Shown here: piece by piece, positions 3,073-38,497 of the stretch
How the letters are laid out: each line of letters begins with the position of its first letter
Numbering within the stretch: position 1 is the stretch's first letter
Source: Brevundimonas albigilva
GTDB lineage: Bacteria; Pseudomonadota; Alphaproteobacteria; Caulobacterales; Caulobacteraceae
Assembly (NCBI RefSeq): GCF_023503965.1
Contig: NZ_CP097298.1
Location: forward strand, 2,001,001-2,065,000
Direction: 5' to 3'
Length of the DNA stretch: 64,000 nucleotides
Program-made: the position numbers and the translations under genes
Notes under the pieces: model-generated
Seen by the model: only the letters and a program-made list of their open reading frames with translations
What the model was told of the DNA's origin: nothing
Databases searched by the model: none

Positions 3073-3206
3073 TCTCCCTCCCCTTCATGGGGAGGGACGG
3101 CGAAGCGAAGCGCAGCCGGGTGGGGAAGTGTGAGACCTCGCTCACGCCCTTACGGGCCCCACCCTGATCGCTGCGCGATCGTCCCTCCCCATGAAGGGGA
3201 GGGAGA
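3073..3206. repeat. palindromic double-hairpin intergenic repeat (copy 1)
   Basis: Inverted repeat between the convergent MFS and dcd genes. The left end (TCTCCCTCCCCTTCATGGGG and onward) is the reverse complement of the right end (3181-3206). Each end is itself a small hairpin around TTCATG / CATGAA. Inner arms GGGTGGGG and CCCCACCC also pair. The layout matches the elements at 4728, 5771 and 33941 though the sequences differ. It could also act as a bidirectional terminator. Confidence 0.85.
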
Positions 3207-4727: not shown

Positions 4728-4879
4728 TACCCCGTGCAGCGAAGCGAAACGGGGAGGGGGACCGCGTAGCGGTGGAGGGGGCGGACGCAGGTTCCGTCGC
4801 CTGATGGTCAACACCGAGCCCGGTTCCGCCCCCTCCACCACGCTTCGCGCGGTCCCCCTCCCCGCTGCGCGGTGGAGGA
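4728..4879. repeat. palindromic double-hairpin intergenic repeat (copy 2)
   Basis: Left arm CCCCGTGCAGCGAAGCG through GGTGGAGGGGGCGGA pairs with the right arm TCCGCCCCCTCCACC through GGTCCCCCTCCCCGCTGCG. The same sequence family recurs at 5771-5937 on the other side of gcrA, with near-identical arms and an unrelated central loop. Confidence 0.88.
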
Positions 4880-5770: not shown

Positions 5771-5937
5771 CTCCCCGTGCAGCGCAGCGGAACGGGGAGG
5801 GGGACCGCGAAGCGGTGGAGGGGGCGGCCGCATCACTGGTCTTTGGATGTGATCGAAGAGAGCGACCGCCGACGCCGGTGCGGCGTCCGCCCCCTCCACC
5901 ACCCTTCGGGCGGTCCCCCTCCCCGCTGCGCGGGGAG
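5771..5937. repeat. palindromic double-hairpin intergenic repeat (copy 3)
   Basis: Same family as 4728-4879: CTCCCCGTGCAGCGCAGCG through GGTGGAGGGGGCGG on the left, and CCGCCCCCTCCACCACCC through CCCCGCTGCGCGGGGAG on the right. The outer module forms a small hairpin by itself (CTCCCCG with CGGGGAG). The central loop is different from copy 2. Confidence 0.88.
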
Positions 5938-6039
5938 GACCCAGGCCTTGCGAACCGCGACGGTCGGGCGCATCTGGCGGCGCATGACCGATCTGATCTC
6001 CATCCGTCCTTCCGGCCTGCCGCAGCCCCGGCGCTATCC

Positions 6040-31344: not shown

Positions 31345-32090
31345 CTAATCCAGCCGGCTCCACTCCAGCGCGTGGACCCGATCCCGGCCCAGGGCGGCGG
31401 CCATCGGCGGGGCGGCGAACAGGCCGGCGATGGCGGGATCGCGCACGTTCAGCCCGCCCGTGAAGGCGCCGAAGGCCGGCAGGATCAGCCGCGACCCGTC
31501 GGTGACGAAACAGGCGCGTCGCACCCCCGGCCATAGGCGGCCACCCGCGCGCAGGGGTGCAGGTGACCCGCCACCTCGCCACGGCGGTCGTCGTCGGCGC
31601 TGAGGGCCTCGGGTTCGTGGACCAGGCGCAGCCCGCCCAGCGAAAGGTCCCCGACGATCCGGCCCGGCAGGCGGCCCGCCGCATCGGCGTCTCGCGCCAG
31701 CGCCTCGCGGTCGTGATTGCCTTCCAGCCACAGCCAGTCGCGGCCCTCGGCCAATCGGTCCAGCCGCGCGCGGTCGTCGGCCGCCATGCGGGGAATGGCC
31801 CGCGTGTCGTGAAAACTGTCCCCCAGCAGGATCACGGTCGCCGGGTCCAGCGCCGCGATCTCGGCCTCCAGCCGGTCCAGGGTCGCGCGGCTGTCGTAGG
31901 GCGGCAGCATCTGGCCGCGCATGGCGAAGGCCGAGCCCTTCTCCAGGTGCAGGTCGGCCGCCACCAGCGCCCCGTGCGCCGGCAGCCACAGCGCGCCGGA
32001 ACAGCGCAGCACGCAGGCCTCGCCCGCGACCAGCACGCTCAGCGATCCGCAGACCTTGCGGGCCAGGCTCTGGCGCAGGGCGGCGTTCAT
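31345..32090 (-). CDS. pdeM: ligase-associated DNA damage response endonuclease PdeM (frameshifted)
   Basis: About 248 residues of the calcineurin-like metallophosphoesterase family. Motifs: LVAADLHLEKGSAF, ILLGDSFHD, WLEGNHDREALA, GHLHPCA. In related genomes it works with a ligase, an MBL exonuclease and an Lhr-like helicase in a repair set. One base is missing in the C run at 31524-31528, shifting the last 60 residues (RRACFVTDGSRLILPAFGAF and onward). Its ATG overlaps the helicase stop (ATGA). Confidence 0.88.
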
Positions 32091-34720
32091 GCGGACGGCT
32101 CCATCACCTCGGCGATCAGGGCTTCGGCGCTCTCGTCCAGGATCATCTCGGCGGCGTCGCCGCCCACCCGCTCGCGCCCGATCTGCACCAGCACCGGCAC
32201 GCAGAAAGGAGACGGTCGGCTCAGCGGCTGATGGCGGATGCGCCCCTCGATCCGCGCCAGCATCTGGCCCAGGCGCGCCACGTCCAGCAGGCCCGAGGCG
32301 GCGTCGGCGCGGGCGGTCTTGAGCAGCAGATGGTCGGGCTGATGGCGGCGCAGCACGTCGTAGATCAAGTCGGTGGAAAAGGTCACCTGCCGCCCCGTCT
32401 TCTCGGCGCCCGGCTGGCGTCGCTCGATCAAGCCCGAGATCAGGGCGCAATTGCGGAAGGACCGCTTCATCATGAAGCTTTCGTCCAGCCACGCCTCCAG
32501 GTCGTCGCCCAGCATGTCGGGCTGGAACAGGGCGTCCAGGTCGATGTCCCCCATCGGCTTGATCGACCAGATCGCCAGCGCATAGTCGGTGACCACGAAC
32601 CCCAGCGGCCCGACGCCCAGGCGGTCCAGCCGCCGGGTCAGCAGCATGCACAGAGTCGTGTGCGCCAGCCGCCCCTCGAACGGATAGGCGACCAGGAAGT
32701 GCCGGCTGCCGCGCGGAAAGGTCTCCACCAGCATCGATTCCGCATCGGGGATGACCGAGCGCGCCTCCTGAAGCTCCAGCCATTCCTGCACGTCGGGCGG
32801 CAGGACGCGCCAGTGATCGCGGTCCTGCACCATGTCGCGCACCCGGTCCGCCAGCGAGGTCGACAGCGGGAACTTCGATCCGCCCCACGACGGGATCTTG
32901 GGCTCCTTGTCGCTGGCGTGGGTGACCAGGGCGTCGGTTCCGGTGATGCCCTGGAAGGCCCAGACCTGGCCGGCGAACAGGAAGGTGTCGCCGGGCGTCA
33001 ACTGTTCGAAATACCATTCCTCGGCCTCGCCCACCTTGCGGCCGGCGATCCAGGCCCGCGTCCCGCCGCCGCCCCGGCGCGAGGCCACCCGCACGTTCAG
33101 CGTCCCGGCCGAGACGATGGCGCCCACGTTCATCCGGTGCCGCTGGGCGATGTGCTGGTTGCGCACCTTCCAGCGCCCATTCTGTGTACGGACGATCCGT
33201 GCGAAACGGTCGTAGGTGCGAAGGGCGTAGCCCCCGGTGGCGACGAAATCGACCACCTCCTCGAACTGCTCCCAGGTCAGGTCGCGATAGGGGCCGCAGC
33301 CGACGATCTGTTCGTACAGCTCGACCATGTCGAACGGCTCGGCGCAGGCCACGCCCATGACGTGCTGGGCCAGGGTGTCCAGGGTGCCGATATGCACCGG
33401 CTCCCAGTCGAAGGCGTTGGCGGCCACCGCCTCGCGCGCGGCCTGGCATTCCAGCATCTCGAACCGGCTTGCGGGCACCAGCAGGGCGCGGCTGGGCTCG
33501 TCCAGCCGGTGGTTGGCCCGGCCGATCCGCTGGACCAGCCGGCTCGACCCCTTCGGCGCCGCCATCTGGATGACCAGGTCCACGTCGCCCCAGTCGATGC
33601 CCAGGTCCAGGGTCGAGGTGCAGACCACCGCGCGCAGGTCGCCGCGCGCCATCGCCGCCTCGACCTTGCGCCGCTGCTCGGCGGCCAGCGACCCGTGATG
33701 CAGGGCGATGGGCAGGTCGTCGTCGTTGATCGCCCACAGTTGCTGGAACACGAACTCGGCCTGCCAGCGCGTGTTGACGAAGATCAGCGACAGCTTGGCC
33801 CGCTGCAGCGCCGCATAGACCTCGGGCACGGCGTGCTGGCCGGTATGCCCCGCCCACGGCACCTTGCCCTCCGAAATCAGCACGTCGATCTCGGCCGCCG
33901 CGCCGGGATCGCCCTTCACCAGGCGCACGCGCTCGCCTTCCTTCCCCCTTGCGGGGGAAGGTGGCTCGCGAAGCGAGACGGATGGGGGTGTAGACGCCGC
34001 TGTCGGACAGGGACAACGAACCCATTGACGACGGAATTCCCGACAGCCCCCCCATCCGAGCCGCTTCGCGGCCCACCTTCCCCGCAAGGGGGAAGGACGT
34101 CCCGGGCTCAGCCACGCCCGGATCAAATCCGGATCCTCGATCGTCGCGCTCAACCCCACCCGCCGCATCTGCGGCGCATAGGCCTGCAGCCGCCCCAGGC
34201 CCAGCGACAGCAGGTCGCCGCGCTTGCCGCTCCAGATGGCGTGGACCTCGTCCAGGATCACGCACTTCAGGTCCGCGAAATAGGACCGCGCGCCCTCCCA
34301 GGCGCAGAACAGCGCCAGCTGTTCCGGCGTGGTCAGCAGGATGTCGGGCGGGAAGTCGCGCTGTCGCTGGCGCTTGGACTGTTTGGTGTCGCCCGTGCGG
34401 CTCTCGACATGGATGTTCAGCCCGATCTCGCGGATCGGCGCCGTCAGGTTGCGCTCCACATCCACCGTCAGCGCCTTCAGCGGCGACAGATACAGGGTGT
34501 GCACCCCCGACCCCGGCCCTGTCTCCGGCTTCGGCCCGCGCTCGGCCAGGTCGATCAGGCTGGGCAGAAACCCCGCCAGCGTCTTGCCCCCGCCGGTCGG
34601 CGCCACCAGCAGGGCGTGCGCCCCGTCCCGCGCCGCCTGCACCATCTCCAGCTGATGCCGCCGGGGCGCCCAGCCGCGCGAGGCGAACCAGTCGGCGAAC
34701 AGCGGCGGAAGCTCCGTCAT
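32087..34720 (-). CDS. ligase-associated DEXH-box helicase (Lhr family) with an in-frame repeat insertion
   Basis: 877 residues, somewhat longer than I expect for this family. RecA-1: LVAPTGGGKTLAGFLPSLID (Walker A), VILDEVHAIW (DEVH), GLSATIED. RecA-2: LIFVNTRWQAE, VVCTSTLDLGIDWG, QRIGRANHR. The winged-helix and Lhr-core region follows (GITGTDALVTHASDKEPKIP, IPSWGGSKFPLST). Between RAWLSP and RVRLVKGDP some 52 residues are encoded by a 155-bp palindromic repeat read through in frame. ATG 34720 (MTELPPLF) overlaps the toxin stop. It translocates on single-stranded DNA, presumably in repair. Confidence 0.92.
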   Translation of the reverse strand: MTELPPLFADWFASRGWAPRRHQLEMVQAARDGAHALLVAPTGGGKTLAGFLPSLIDLAERGPKPETGPGSGVHTLYLSPLKALTVDVERNLTAPIREIGLNIHVESRTGDTKQSKRQRQRDFPPDILLTTPEQLALFCAWEGARSYFADLKCVILDEVHAIWSGKRGDLLSLGLGRLQAYAPQMRRVGLSATIEDPDLIRAWLSPGRPSPLRGRWAAKRLGWGGCREFRRQWVRCPCPTAASTPPSVSLREPPSPARGKEGERVRLVKGDPGAAAEIDVLISEGKVPWAGHTGQHAVPEVYAALQRAKLSLIFVNTRWQAEFVFQQLWAINDDDLPIALHHGSLAAEQRRKVEAAMARGDLRAVVCTSTLDLGIDWGDVDLVIQMAAPKGSSRLVQRIGRANHRLDEPSRALLVPASRFEMLECQAAREAVAANAFDWEPVHIGTLDTLAQHVMGVACAEPFDMVELYEQIVGCGPYRDLTWEQFEEVVDFVATGGYALRTYDRFARIVRTQNGRWKVRNQHIAQRHRMNVGAIVSAGTLNVRVASRRGGGGTRAWIAGRKVGEAEEWYFEQLTPGDTFLFAGQVWAFQGITGTDALVTHASDKEPKIPSWGGSKFPLSTSLADRVRDMVQDRDHWRVLPPDVQEWLELQEARSVIPDAESMLVETFPRGSRHFLVAYPFEGRLAHTTLCMLLTRRLDRLGVGPLGFVVTDYALAIWSIKPMGDIDLDALFQPDMLGDDLEAWLDESFMMKRSFRNCALISGLIERRQPGAEKTGRQVTFSTDLIYDVLRRHQPDHLLLKTARADAASGLLDVARLGQMLARIEGRIRHQPLSRPSPFCVPVLVQIGRERVGGDAAEMILDESAEALIAEVMEPSA
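33941..34095. repeat. palindromic repeat element inserted in frame inside the helicase gene
   Basis: Left half CTTCCCCCTTGCGGGGGAAG, GTGGCTCGCGAAGCGAGACG, GATGGGGG (33941-33988) is mirrored by CCCCCCATCCGAGCCGCTTC, GCGGCCCACCTTCCCC, GCAAGGGGGAAG (about 34048-34095). The terminal 20-bp module is a hairpin by itself. The inner part GCTGTCGG pairs with CCGACAGC. Same architecture as the intergenic repeats at 3073, 4728 and 5771, but here within coding sequence and open in the helicase frame. Confidence 0.88.
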
Positions 34721-35154
34721 CCGCTCCACGGCGCCAGCAGCCGGCAACCGCTGTGTTCGAAATGGCGGACGTTGCGCGTGACGATGGTCAGATCATGGAC
34801 AAGGGCCGTAGCGGCCAAGAGCTCATCGGTGAGGCCGACGTTCACGCCCGCTGAACGATAGGCCTCCGCGAGCGGAGCCCATCGCTCGACGACAGCGAGG
34901 TCGACGGCCACCAACCGGTCGCCATACTCGGCCACGATCCCGTCGATCCTCGCCTGGAGCAGCGCGCCGCGCGGGTCCGATCCCAGGCGCAATGCGCCCC
35001 GCCGCATCTCGCCGACGGTGAGGACGCTGACGTTCAGCCGATCGTCGAAGTCTTCCTCCGGCGAGCCCACCGATGCGAACCACTCCATGAACCCCGCGTT
35101 CGGCCGCGACCTCAGCGTTTCACTGATCGCGTTCGTATCGAGCAGAAACCTCAA
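34717..35154 (-). CDS. VapC-like PIN-domain toxin
   Basis: 145 residues, PIN RNase fold. Acidic residues in order: LLDTNAISE (Asp), SVLTVGEMRRG (Glu), GLTDELLAATAL (Asp), and the TRNVRHFEHSGCRLLAPW ending typical of VapC/FitB-type toxins. It probably cleaves RNA when free of antitoxin. The start is TTG 35154, sharing bases with the antitoxin stop (TTGA). Its own stop overlaps the repair helicase start (ATGA), so toxin and helicase are translationally coupled. Confidence 0.88.
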   Translation of the reverse strand: MRFLLDTNAISETLRSRPNAGFMEWFASVGSPEEDFDDRLNVSVLTVGEMRRGALRLGSDPRGALLQARIDGIVAEYGDRLVAVDLAVVERWAPLAEAYRSAGVNVGLTDELLAATALVHDLTIVTRNVRHFEHSGCRLLAPWSG

Positions 35155-35390
35155 AAAGAGAAATCTCGAGCCGGCCGTCGGTCGCGTTCGATCTCGACAT
35201 CATCGAGACGCGGACCCGTCAGCAGCCACTCTTTGAATGTTGGCTTGCGCTCGGACAGCCGACGAAACTCGGCTTCTGACAGAAGCATGTAGCGTCCCCG
35301 CCCTTCGACAGGGACGGCTTGCGGCCCCTCCTCGTCGACCTTGGCGGCCAGGGCGGTCAACCATTCGTCGTTGGAGACGATCTTGTTCAT
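35151..35390 (-). CDS. Phd/YefM-type antitoxin
   Basis: 79 residues. Prevent-host-death family layout: an N-terminal DNA-binding part (MNKIVSNDEWLTALAAKVDE, YMLLSEAEFRRLSE) and a C-terminal toxin-binding tail FKEWLLTGPRLDDVEIERDR with RPARDF, matching antitoxins that accompany PIN toxins. It presumably represses its own operon. ATG 35390 is used; the upstream in-frame start would run into the divergent helicase promoter. It is the first gene of an operon running through vapC, helicase and pdeM. Confidence 0.82.
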   Translation of the reverse strand: MNKIVSNDEWLTALAAKVDEEGPQAVPVEGRGRYMLLSEAEFRRLSERKPTFKEWLLTGPRLDDVEIERDRRPARDFSF

Positions 35391-35471
35391 GGCGCCCAGC
35401 CTACTGCATTTCGTTCGCCCGAACCAGATGTTCCCGTTCCGTTTCATCCCGCCCGGCGCTATCTATCGGCC

Positions 35472-38325
35472 GTGTCCGACGAATCCGTCATCGCCCCGTC
35501 CGTCCACAGCGCCGCCGACGCCGCTGTCGGCCCGTGGACCGACCTGCCGCCCGCCTTGGCCGTGCCGCCGGGCGCCGGGGCCGTGTGCGACGAGGCAGGC
35601 GCGCGGCGGATCGGGCGGGGGCCGCCGAGGGACTGTTCACCGGCGGCCGCGTCCTGGTCGCCCACGCCAGCCTGACCGCGCGCCGCCTGGGCCTGCAGCC
35701 GCCGGCGCGCTCGCCGGACGTCATGGACGTGCTGGAGCTGTTCGCCTTCGTCCGCCCGGCCCGCTTCTGCGCGCCGTCGCCGACCGGCCTGGCGCTGGGG
35801 CTGGGCCTGGCCGAGCCGAAGTCGGTCGAGGCGCAGGCCGAACGGCTGCACGAGGCGGCGACCCTGCTGCTGAAGGAGCTGGCCGCCCCCGCCTATCCGG
35901 GGCGGGAAGAGGCCTACGCCCTGGCCCTGACGCTGGAGCGCGCCGGCTGGGCCTGGGGCGCGGCGGCGGTGCGGGCGCTGGAGCGGGGCGGCGTGCGTCA
36001 GAGGCAGCATCGCGGCGCCGGCCTGGACGTCTGGTCGCGCCTGACCGAATGGGAGGACGAGGCCCCGCGCGGCGAGGCGGGGTCCGCGCCCGTCGATTCC
36101 GAATCCGCCCGCATCCGTCTGGACAAGCTGCTCCAGGCCTCGGGCCTGGACGAGACCCGCCCCACCCAGTCCGACTACGCCGCCGAGGCCGCCTTCGCCT
36201 TTTCGCCGCGGAACGAGGAGGGCCGGCCCCGCGTCCTGCTGGCCGAGGCCGGCACCGGCACGGGCAAGACCCTGGGCTATCTGGCGCCGGCTTCGCTGTG
36301 GGCCGAGCGGAACCAGGGCGCGGCCTGGGTCTCGACCTACACCCGCGCCCTGCAGCGCCAGATCGACCGCGAGAGCGGCGCCGTCTGGCCCGACCCCGCC
36401 GAGCGCAGGAAGAAGGCCGTGATCCGCAAGGGGCGCGAGAACTATCTGTGCGTCCTCAACCTGCAGGACATGGTCCAGGCGGCCCAGCTGGGCAACGGCG
36501 ACCTGATCGGCCTGGCGCTGGCCGGCCGCTGGGCGATCCACAGCCGCGACGGCGACATGACCGGCGGCGACTTTCCCGGCTGGCTGCCCAGTCTGTTCGC
36601 GGTCGCGCCGTCCCAGCAGGCGGGGCCGGCCAATCTGGTCGATCGACGGGGAGAGTGCGTCCACGCCGCCTGCCCCCACTACCGCGCCTGTTTCGTGGAA
36701 AAGACCATCCGCGCCAGCCGCAAGGCCGACCTGGTCATCGCCAACCACGCCCTGGTCCTGACCCAGGCCGCCTTCGACGGCGCCCGCTCGGCGCGCGGCC
36801 AGAAGCAGGACGGCGAGACGGCGGCGCTGAAGCGATCGTCTTCGACGAGGGCCACCACCTGTTCGACGCCGCCGACAGCGCCTTTTCCGCCTGCCTCTCG
36901 GGCCAGGAGGCGGCCGAGCTGCGCCGCTGGATCCGCGGGCCGGAAGGGCGCGGCCGCCGCGGGCGCGGCCTGGAGCAGCGTCTCGGCGACCTGACCGGCG
37001 GCAACGAGGCCGCGGCCAAGGCGCTTCAGGACGCCATGCGCGCCGCCGCCGCCCTGCCGGGCGAAGGGGTGTCGGGCCGCATCGCCCCCGCCTCGGGCGA
37101 GGTCAATCCCATCGGCCCGATCGAGGCCTTCCTGGCCGCCGCCCTGGACCAGCTGCGCGCCCGCACCGCCGACACGCCCTATGGCGGCGCCGAGTTCGGC
37201 ATGGAATGCGCGCTCAAGCCCGTGACCGAGCCGGTCGCCGAGGCCGCTCGCGCCGCCGCCCGCGCCCTGGCCGCCATCGAAGCCCCGCTGCTGACCCTGG
37301 CGCGCACGCTGGAGGACATTCTGGACGACGAGGCGGCCGAGCTGGACGGCTCGCAACGGTCACGCATCGAGGGCGCCCTTCGCGGCCTGGATCGGCGCGC
37401 GCGCATGACCCTGCCGGGCTGGCGCTCCATGCTGGCGGCGCTGGAGGAGGCGGGCGCCGAACCCGATCCCGACTTCGTCGACTGGCTGTCGGCCGAGACC
37501 GCCTTCGGCCGCATCCACGACGTGGCCCTGCGTCGCCACTGGATCGACCCGACCGTGCCGCTGGAGGCCGCCGTCATCGTGCCGGCCCACGGGGTTCTGG
37601 TGACCTCCGCCACCCTGTCCGATCCGTTGCAGGACGACCCGTTCGACCTGGCCCGCCTGCGCACCGGCTCGGCCCGGCTGATCGAGCCGCCGCGCACCCT
37701 CAAGGTCGACAGCCCCTTCGACTACGCCGCCAACAGCCGGGTCATCGTCGTCAACGACCTGATGAAGGACGACCCCCGCCAGACCGCGGCGGCGATGCGC
37801 GAACTGTTCCTGGCCGCCGGCGGCGGGGGCCTGGGACTGTTCACCGCCATCCGCCGGCTGAAGGCGGTCTATGAGCGGCTGGGGCCGGACCTGGCGCGGG
37901 CCGGCCTGCCCCTCTACGCCCAGCACGTCGATCCGCTGGAGGTCGGCGCCCTGGTCGACATGTTCCGGGTGGAGGAGAACGCCTGCCTCCTGGGCACCGA
38001 CGCCGTTCGGGACGGTGTGGACGTGCCCGGCCGATCACTGCGCGTCCTGGCCTTCGACCGGGTGCCCTGGCCGCGCCCCGACCTGCTGCACAAGGCGCGG
38101 CGCGAACGGCTGGGCGGGAAAGGCTACGACGACGCCATCGCCCGCGCCCGCATGGCCCAGGCCTTCGGCCGCCTGATCCGCCGGGCCGACGACAAGGGCG
38201 TCTTCCTGATGCTGGACGCCGCCGCCCCCACCCGCCTGTTCGCCAGCCTGCCCCCCGGAACCGAGGTCCAGCGCCTGGGCCTGGCCGACGCGGTCGAGCA
38301 GGTGCGCGACTTCCTGGGCGATTGA
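35472..38325 (+). CDS. DinG/Rad3-like ATP-dependent DNA helicase (two frameshifts)
   Basis: About 951 residues after repair. XPD/DinG superfamily 2 helicase: Walker A LLAEAGTGTGKTLGYLAPAS, DEGH box IVFDEGHHLFDAADS, LVTSATLSD, and the last motifs GTDAVRDGVDVPGRSLR and AQAFGRLIRRADDKG. Four Cys (ECVHAACPHYRACF with the earlier YLCVL) are consistent with an Fe-S cluster of this group. Bases are missing in the G run at 35617-35621 and near 36832. Start GTG 35472 (VSDESVIAPSVH). Divergent from the toxin-antitoxin operon. Confidence 0.88.
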
Positions 38326-38389: not shown

Positions 38390-38497
38390 CGTCATCCTCG
38401 CCCTCGTGGCGAGGATCCAGACTCCCGGTGTCCAACGATTGGGCGCGCTGCGGCGAAACCGGGAGTCTGGATCCCCGGGTCAAGCCCGAGGATGACG
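38390..38497. repeat. palindromic intergenic repeat of a second family
   Basis: CGTCATCCTCG (38390-38400) pairs with CGAGGATGACG (38487-38497), and GGATCCAGACTCCCGGT with ACCGGGAGTCTGGATCC. Sequence of this type (GTCAAGCCCGAGGATGACG) is widely seen between alphaproteobacterial genes. It is unrelated in sequence to the elements at 3-6 kb and 34 kb. Confidence 0.85.

Follow-up and report, generated by a model that had tools for sequence, protein, structure and literature searches.

A repair helicase gene of Brevundimonas albigilva contains a stretch that pairs with itself as an inverted repeat and is also read as protein. We asked what this stretch is, how it came to lie within a conserved gene and what might have moved it there. 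The analysis started from a window of 64,000 nucleotides (part of a single 3.21 Mb contig) and was extended to the remainder of the genome and to related bacteria.

The gene encodes a ligase-associated DEXH-box helicase of 877 amino acids, starting from the ATG at 34720. Its TIGR04121 match scores 1095.4 bits (cut-off 850) and is interrupted at the insert. Together with the downstream gene for the endonuclease PdeM it fits a repair gene pair. A 145 amino acid VapC-like PIN-domain open reading frame (34717–35154, minus strand) abuts the helicase start, with VapC matches that are weak and under cut-off. The closest solved fold for the helicase is that of Mycobacterium smegmatis Lhr (5v9x). In an AlphaFold model built from 30 sequences (mean pLDDT 70), residues 208–261 have pLDDT values below 50 and are flanked by a helix (196–203) and a strand (265–268). 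The insert is thus predicted to be a disordered linker between RecA1 and RecA2, in support of the linker placement suggested by an earlier note on this DNA.

Within this linker we identified two inverted units separated by a spacer (Table 1). Aligned as inverted repeats, the two arms span 50 columns and differ by five mismatches and one gap, and the unit model of the element comprises ~50 nt and two hairpins. The linker also folds far more stably than its dinucleotide-shuffled versions (z = –7.9, 60 shuffles). Arm alignment and folding therefore confirm the inverted-repeat element that the earlier note had described. Consistent with its claim of an open frame, ~52 added residues and an 877-residue protein, residue mapping placed the element at residues about 209–260 with the frame open throughout, and codon use favored the same frame on either side of the insert. 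The element carries terminal inverted repeats, a criterion for MITEs. A search of Rfam with positions 32000–36000 returned nothing on the element and one sub-threshold chance match elsewhere.

Table 1. Positions of the helicase locus and of related palindromic pairs. Positions refer to the window; cassette and DUF559 gene coordinates in the last column refer to the genome. A dot marks features given without a strand.
Feature	Position	Strand	Details
Palindromic pair, family C, intergenic	3074..3206	.	Arms 87-89% identical to ends of the genome's own DUF559 cassette 1221736-1222062
Palindromic pair, family B, intergenic	about 4731..4876	.	97% over 37 nt to left unit of own DUF559 gene 1069449-1069736
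Palindromic pair, family B, intergenic	about 5772..5943	.	97% over 37 nt to left unit of own DUF559 gene 1069449-1069736
Ligase-associated endonuclease PdeM, downstream of helicase	31485..32102	-	TIGR04123 161.3 bits, cut-off 150
Ligase-associated DEXH-box (Lhr-core) helicase gene with insert	32087..34720	-	TIGR04121; PF00270, PF00271, PF19306, PF08494
Palindromic element, family A, CCTTCCCCC/GGATGGGGG subtype	about 33939..34097	.	Inverted-arm alignment and residue mapping
Left unit: hairpin CCTTCCCCCTTGCGGGGGAAGG, then hairpin CTCGCGAAGCGAG, end GGATGGGGG	33939..33988	+	
Spacer separating the two units, 60 nt	33989..34048	.	
Right unit, inverted	34049..34097	-	

Three further pairs in the window had been read as copies of the same element. 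They do share its architecture and are intergenic, a location with which the codon use around them agrees, but they belong to sequence families other than that of the helicase insert. A different type of inverted repeat (CGTCATCC...GGATCCAG) lies at 38390–38497 in the window; by eye it resembles a CGTC-tagged REP dimer, and it matched none of the three DUF559 cassettes of this genome that are described below.

To place the insert among homologs, we compared the linker in 152 distinct Caulobacteraceae helicase genes: the window gene, 80 similarity-ranked loci (mostly Brevundimonas) and 71 further loci. The last group consists of 80 loci minus eight duplicates and one (L110) whose flank is missing at a contig end; two copies of the window (L081 and L086) were excluded before counting. 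Linker length is bimodal, with 96 genes at 15–75 nt and 56 at 117–207 nt. The alignment with homologs that the earlier note had recommended uncovered the gap at the element: the linker measures 186 nt in the window helicase versus 30 nt in L007, L010 and L011, L007 being the nearest relative by tree path. The further loci are an uneven sample, as 20 were picked because their profile match was broken (17 remained, 16 of them long) and the other 60 because it was unbroken (54 remained, none long). We therefore take the 39 long linkers among the 80 similarity-ranked loci, whose ranking took no account of the insert, as the fair frequency.

The long linkers have two properties in common. Of the 56, 54 are in frame and stop-free, the exceptions being L094 (out of frame, and containing an N) and L024 (with a stop). 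Likewise, 54 fold with z ≤ –2.5, the exceptions being L094 and L102; in the latter the linker, though long, contains no palindrome (z = –0.2), and the gene still counts among the 56. We recognized at least six palindrome families at this linker, labeled A, B, D, E, F and G by eye and with regular expressions on motifs, D and E being alike. In addition, there are three mixed B/F cases and a distinct repeat in L106.

On a FastTree tree of the helicase protein with the linker removed, presence of the insert changes at least 35 times, with 27 changes forced by well-supported (starred) branches, and parsimony with family labels requires 45 changes. Near neighbors are unlike one another: L072 carries family B, L040 family A and L080 a single terminal hairpin. 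Such a hairpin is retained in five of the 96 short linkers, as expected from deletion between palindromic ends, and the single terminal hairpins in some relatives are likely scars of this process. The hot spot was not seen outside Caulobacteraceae, where 47 of 49 readable linkers measure 15–54 nt (L427, at a contig end, was excluded) and the two long ones (L426 and L428) fold no better than shuffles.

We considered whether the insert might instead be an ancestral functional segment of the protein whose DNA is palindromic by chance. Preservation of the frame in 54 of 56 long linkers agrees with this idea. Close relatives, though, lack the insert or carry another family, so that no conserved segment of equal length – the outcome that the earlier note had named as refuting an insertion – appeared at this place. 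The arms are shared with DNA cassettes at other genomic positions, and the insert is predicted to be disordered. In addition, dN/dS is higher in the insert (0.19–0.84 in eight same-family pairs, a ninth pair with members from different families being excluded) than in the flanks, which are under constraint (0.02–0.16 in 15 pairs). An ancestral segment is, in our view, scarcely credible.

Recurrence at one loop could also mean that something in the sequence or structure of the helicase linker attracts elements, making it a specific DNA target. The changes on the tree all fall at a single linker, and the inserts of several families lie only a few codons apart. Insertions in other genes bear on this explanation. 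In genome G127, a codon-use test identified three of 31 element rows as in frame, stop-free and intragenic: those in the helicase, in MurD (TIGR01087, 350 bits) and in RibD (TIGR00227, 167 bits). L191 yielded no row in this test.

The MurD loop resembles the helicase linker in its history of repeated insertion. Among 28 readable loci (L284 being partial), six carry palindromic pairs at this loop, with more than one family represented, three have a single hairpin and 19 have neither; all pairs and single hairpins are in frame. The murD gene is generally regarded as essential. In L285, L287 and L290, palindromes of the CTCATCCC...GGGACCCAG type fill the MurD loop that family A uses in relatives. 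RibD provides a clean case of presence and absence, with a 153-nt loop in three of 15 genes and a 21-nt loop in the other 12.

The recurrence in MurD and the insertion in RibD occurred at sequences other than the helicase linker, 28 of the 31 G127 rows are not in-frame intragenic elements and the exact entry points within the linker vary. These observations argue against a specific target, which we consider improbable. Because of MurD and RibD, we favor general landing combined with loop tolerance: the likeliest cause of the recurrence is a rain of elements filtered by what a loop can accommodate. A short target duplication, which the earlier note had suggested as a check on the element's ends, did not materialize. 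Our search for one covered two cassettes as well as the helicase, MurD and RibD sites and found none, the helicase, MurD and cassette sites being too diverged for exact reading; comparison with empty RibD sites indicates that ~15 bp of target were replaced.

We then sought the source of the elements. Elsewhere in the B. albigilva genome, the helicase element is matched best by the two ends of a ~500 bp block (2494111–2494609) that encodes a DUF559 protein. The helicase arms match these ends at 93% over 55 and 60 nt. The genome contains three DUF559 matches in total, all flanked by inverted repeats, and each of the three window families (A, B and C) matches a different one of these loci. At the DUF559 gene 1069449–1069736, the right flank is a complete family B pair. 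Thus, beyond what the earlier note had described, this locus presents repeated hits by different families, recurrence in MurD and ends that match DUF559-nuclease cassettes.

Several lines of evidence place the DUF559 proteins in a nuclease family. All three copies score above the PF04480 cut-off of 20.6 bits (129.4 bits for the copy at 2494k) and keep an ExDG..H motif. The profile of the DUF559 family hits 3hrl at 3.5e-36. For P0001, a relative from the database with 71% identity to the B. albigilva copy, a model (pLDDT 86) also matches 3hrl (1e-6), as well as the catalytic domain of I-Bth0305I, a homing endonuclease (3r3p, 5e-4); its match to E. coli Vsr is weak (E 0.28). Judged by these comparisons, the B. 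albigilva proteins are members of the Vsr-like PD-(D/E)XK nuclease family.

These findings suggest that the helicase repeat is probably a non-autonomous mobile element, moved by a DUF559 nuclease encoded between the same inverted ends. The nuclease would recognize and cut the hairpin ends, and repair or copying of the break would insert the element; a few target bases would be lost, and the target would not be duplicated. Palindromic pairs would represent internally deleted cassettes. Landing would be wide, but intragenic copies would persist only in surface loops able to accommodate about 40–60 extra in-frame residues.

The principal alternative is that DUF559 genes are passengers. The palindromes would then spread by another route, for example through replication template switching or by means of a transposase, whether host-encoded or mobile, and the genes would merely lie between two copies. 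A wider survey of DUF559 loci bears on this possibility. DUF559 was present in all 20 Caulobacteraceae genomes searched, with two to 10 matches each and 100 in total. Requiring inverted repeats of at least 30 nt on both sides, at most 300 nt away, we found the gene to be flanked in 57 of 70 loci – a set composed of the best-scoring 30 and then 40 hand-picked lower ones (the last twenty mostly Brevundimonas) rather than a random draw. The same test scored none of 400 random segments as flanked, and 1 of 116 displaced ones. Across alphaproteobacteria more broadly, DUF559 occurred in 37 of 142 genomes, and flanking repeats of at least 25 nt were found at 16 of 29 DUF559 loci, one of which is from Brevundimonas.

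We also found that unit type tracks nuclease type. Similarity among units correlates with similarity among nucleases (Spearman 0.30, a value reached in 0 of 2000 within-genome permutations), and the nearest nuclease in another genome has the same unit in 40 of 57 cases, against a background of 11%. The correlation is carried by similar pairs and falls to 0.06 across 1019 between-genus pairs. Linked inheritance could also produce it, in which case the unit–gene–unit block would itself be a heritable mobile piece.

Consistent with block mobility, unit–gene–unit blocks at two chromosomal sites are present in some relatives and missing from others as a whole. Of the 10 relatives compared at the 2494k site, from among 29 fetched loci, nine lack the block and one, G207, carries a DUF559 block of its own there. 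At the 1221k site, six of 11 relatives have a 474–551 nt block that contains the nuclease motif and units of family C, three have another repeat of 136–154 nt and two are nearly empty (2 and 12 nt).

Some observations do favor the passenger explanation. Thirteen of the 70 loci lack flanking repeats by our criterion (one of these, L215, is at a contig end), and some palindromes of the same loops, namely the CTCATCCC type and the L106 repeat, were not noticed around DUF559 genes. One member of the domain family, Caulobacter VsrA, has been proposed to be a mismatch-repair nuclease (PMC12907096), so the cassette genes might be cargo; the main text of that study never mentions transposition or palindromes. 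On the other side are the high proportion of flanked loci relative to random segments, the covariation of units and nucleases within genomes and the pairing of three families with three DUF559 loci in a single genome. Furthermore, we found no Y1/RAYT transposase (PF01797) at E 0.001 in this genome, which is rated 89% complete, and thus rejected a RAYT as the mobilizer here. On balance, we regard the passenger explanation as rather unlikely.

Two attempts to count units were discarded. Searching the B. albigilva genome with a consensus pattern gave mostly chance matches (69, versus 22 with the reversed pattern). A unit model, R1, gave 7–128 matches per genome in 28 genomes. We rejected these values as copy numbers because no more than 150 candidates were scored per genome and the matches probably include related families; for B. 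albigilva there were 40 R1 matches versus 12 places found by BLAST.

How do these elements compare with known palindromic repeats? The earlier note had drawn a parallel between the helicase insert and in-frame palindromic elements of Rickettsia, here in a free-living caulobacter relative, and our results support it. Rickettsia palindromic elements are described as 105–146 bp inserts that lie in frame within conserved proteins (PMC2229807), and the helicase element is likewise a palindrome translated in frame in a conserved protein. The likeness considered here lies in how the elements are described, and the helicase element differs in host lineage, in the recurrent occupation of one loop by different families and in having a candidate nuclease partner. 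Caulobacter CIR elements share two inverted arms around a linker, but they are described as intergenic rather than intragenic, with stops in all frames and GANTC sites (PMC2229807), whereas the helicase element is intragenic, open in frame and free of GANTC.

REP-type palindromes are reported to be common in alphaproteobacteria (PMC3733652). The CGTC REPs, found mostly in this class, are described as mainly head-to-head dimers without a dedicated transposase, each unit having a single 8–9 bp stem, a CGTC tag and a CCA tail (PMC3733652). By inspection, the helicase unit is different – it has two stems, spans ~50 nt, starts with CCTTC and lacks the CGTC REP's end. Palindromes read in frame, and REPs within repair genes, are also on record for free-living bacteria, including different REPs at about the same site of Xanthomonas recB (PMC3733652). 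The in-frame insert is thus a new case of a known kind; its recurrence with many families at one loop is unusual.

The closest organizational parallel involves the GTAG REPs and their RAYT enzymes (REPtrons and REPINs), in which palindromes flank a cognate enzyme gene and many non-autonomous copies exist (PMC3733652). DUF559 cassettes share this arrangement, but with a Vsr-like PD-(D/E)XK protein in place of an HUH tyrosine transposase. In the open-licence literature, we found nothing tying DUF559 to such palindromic repeats and nothing relevant on a REP-associated transposase or on REPs of Brevundimonas. The cassettes could be new in kind, with a role in movement suggested by anatomy and covariation. 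A more general proposal is that DUF559 nucleases mobilize bacterial elements of a new kind, in which inverted double-hairpin units enclose a nuclease gene. Such an element would be free of transposase and of target duplication and would spawn short paired-palindrome copies, some of which join essential or repair proteins. We consider the arguments for and against this generalization to be evenly balanced.

For alphaproteobacterial palindrome families other than the CGTC class, these results name a specific, testable candidate enzyme whose cognate ends occur in one genome. They also show that palindromes have repeatedly become protein segments in free-living bacteria, MurD included. DUF559 proteins currently viewed as repair nucleases may merit re-examination.

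Three additional observations concern sequences at or near the inserts and cassettes. At an intergenic site that is occupied by a DUF559 cassette in other species, L452, L453 and L454 have another kind of inverted repeat (136–154 nt), of the GTTAGTGGCGAGTGACGAGTGG type in L453 and L454 and of a different type in L452. In L190 (genome G127), the region upstream of the helicase insert, around 1489, contains a tandem duplication of a ~35-residue segment (RLQ.FAPQMRRVALSATVDDP..IADWLSPSP). Finally, the database DUF559 proteins P0048 and P0078 appear to carry their own flanking palindromic units as translated terminal tails (PPHPTGSAGHLLPRGEK, PPSPAEGGG).
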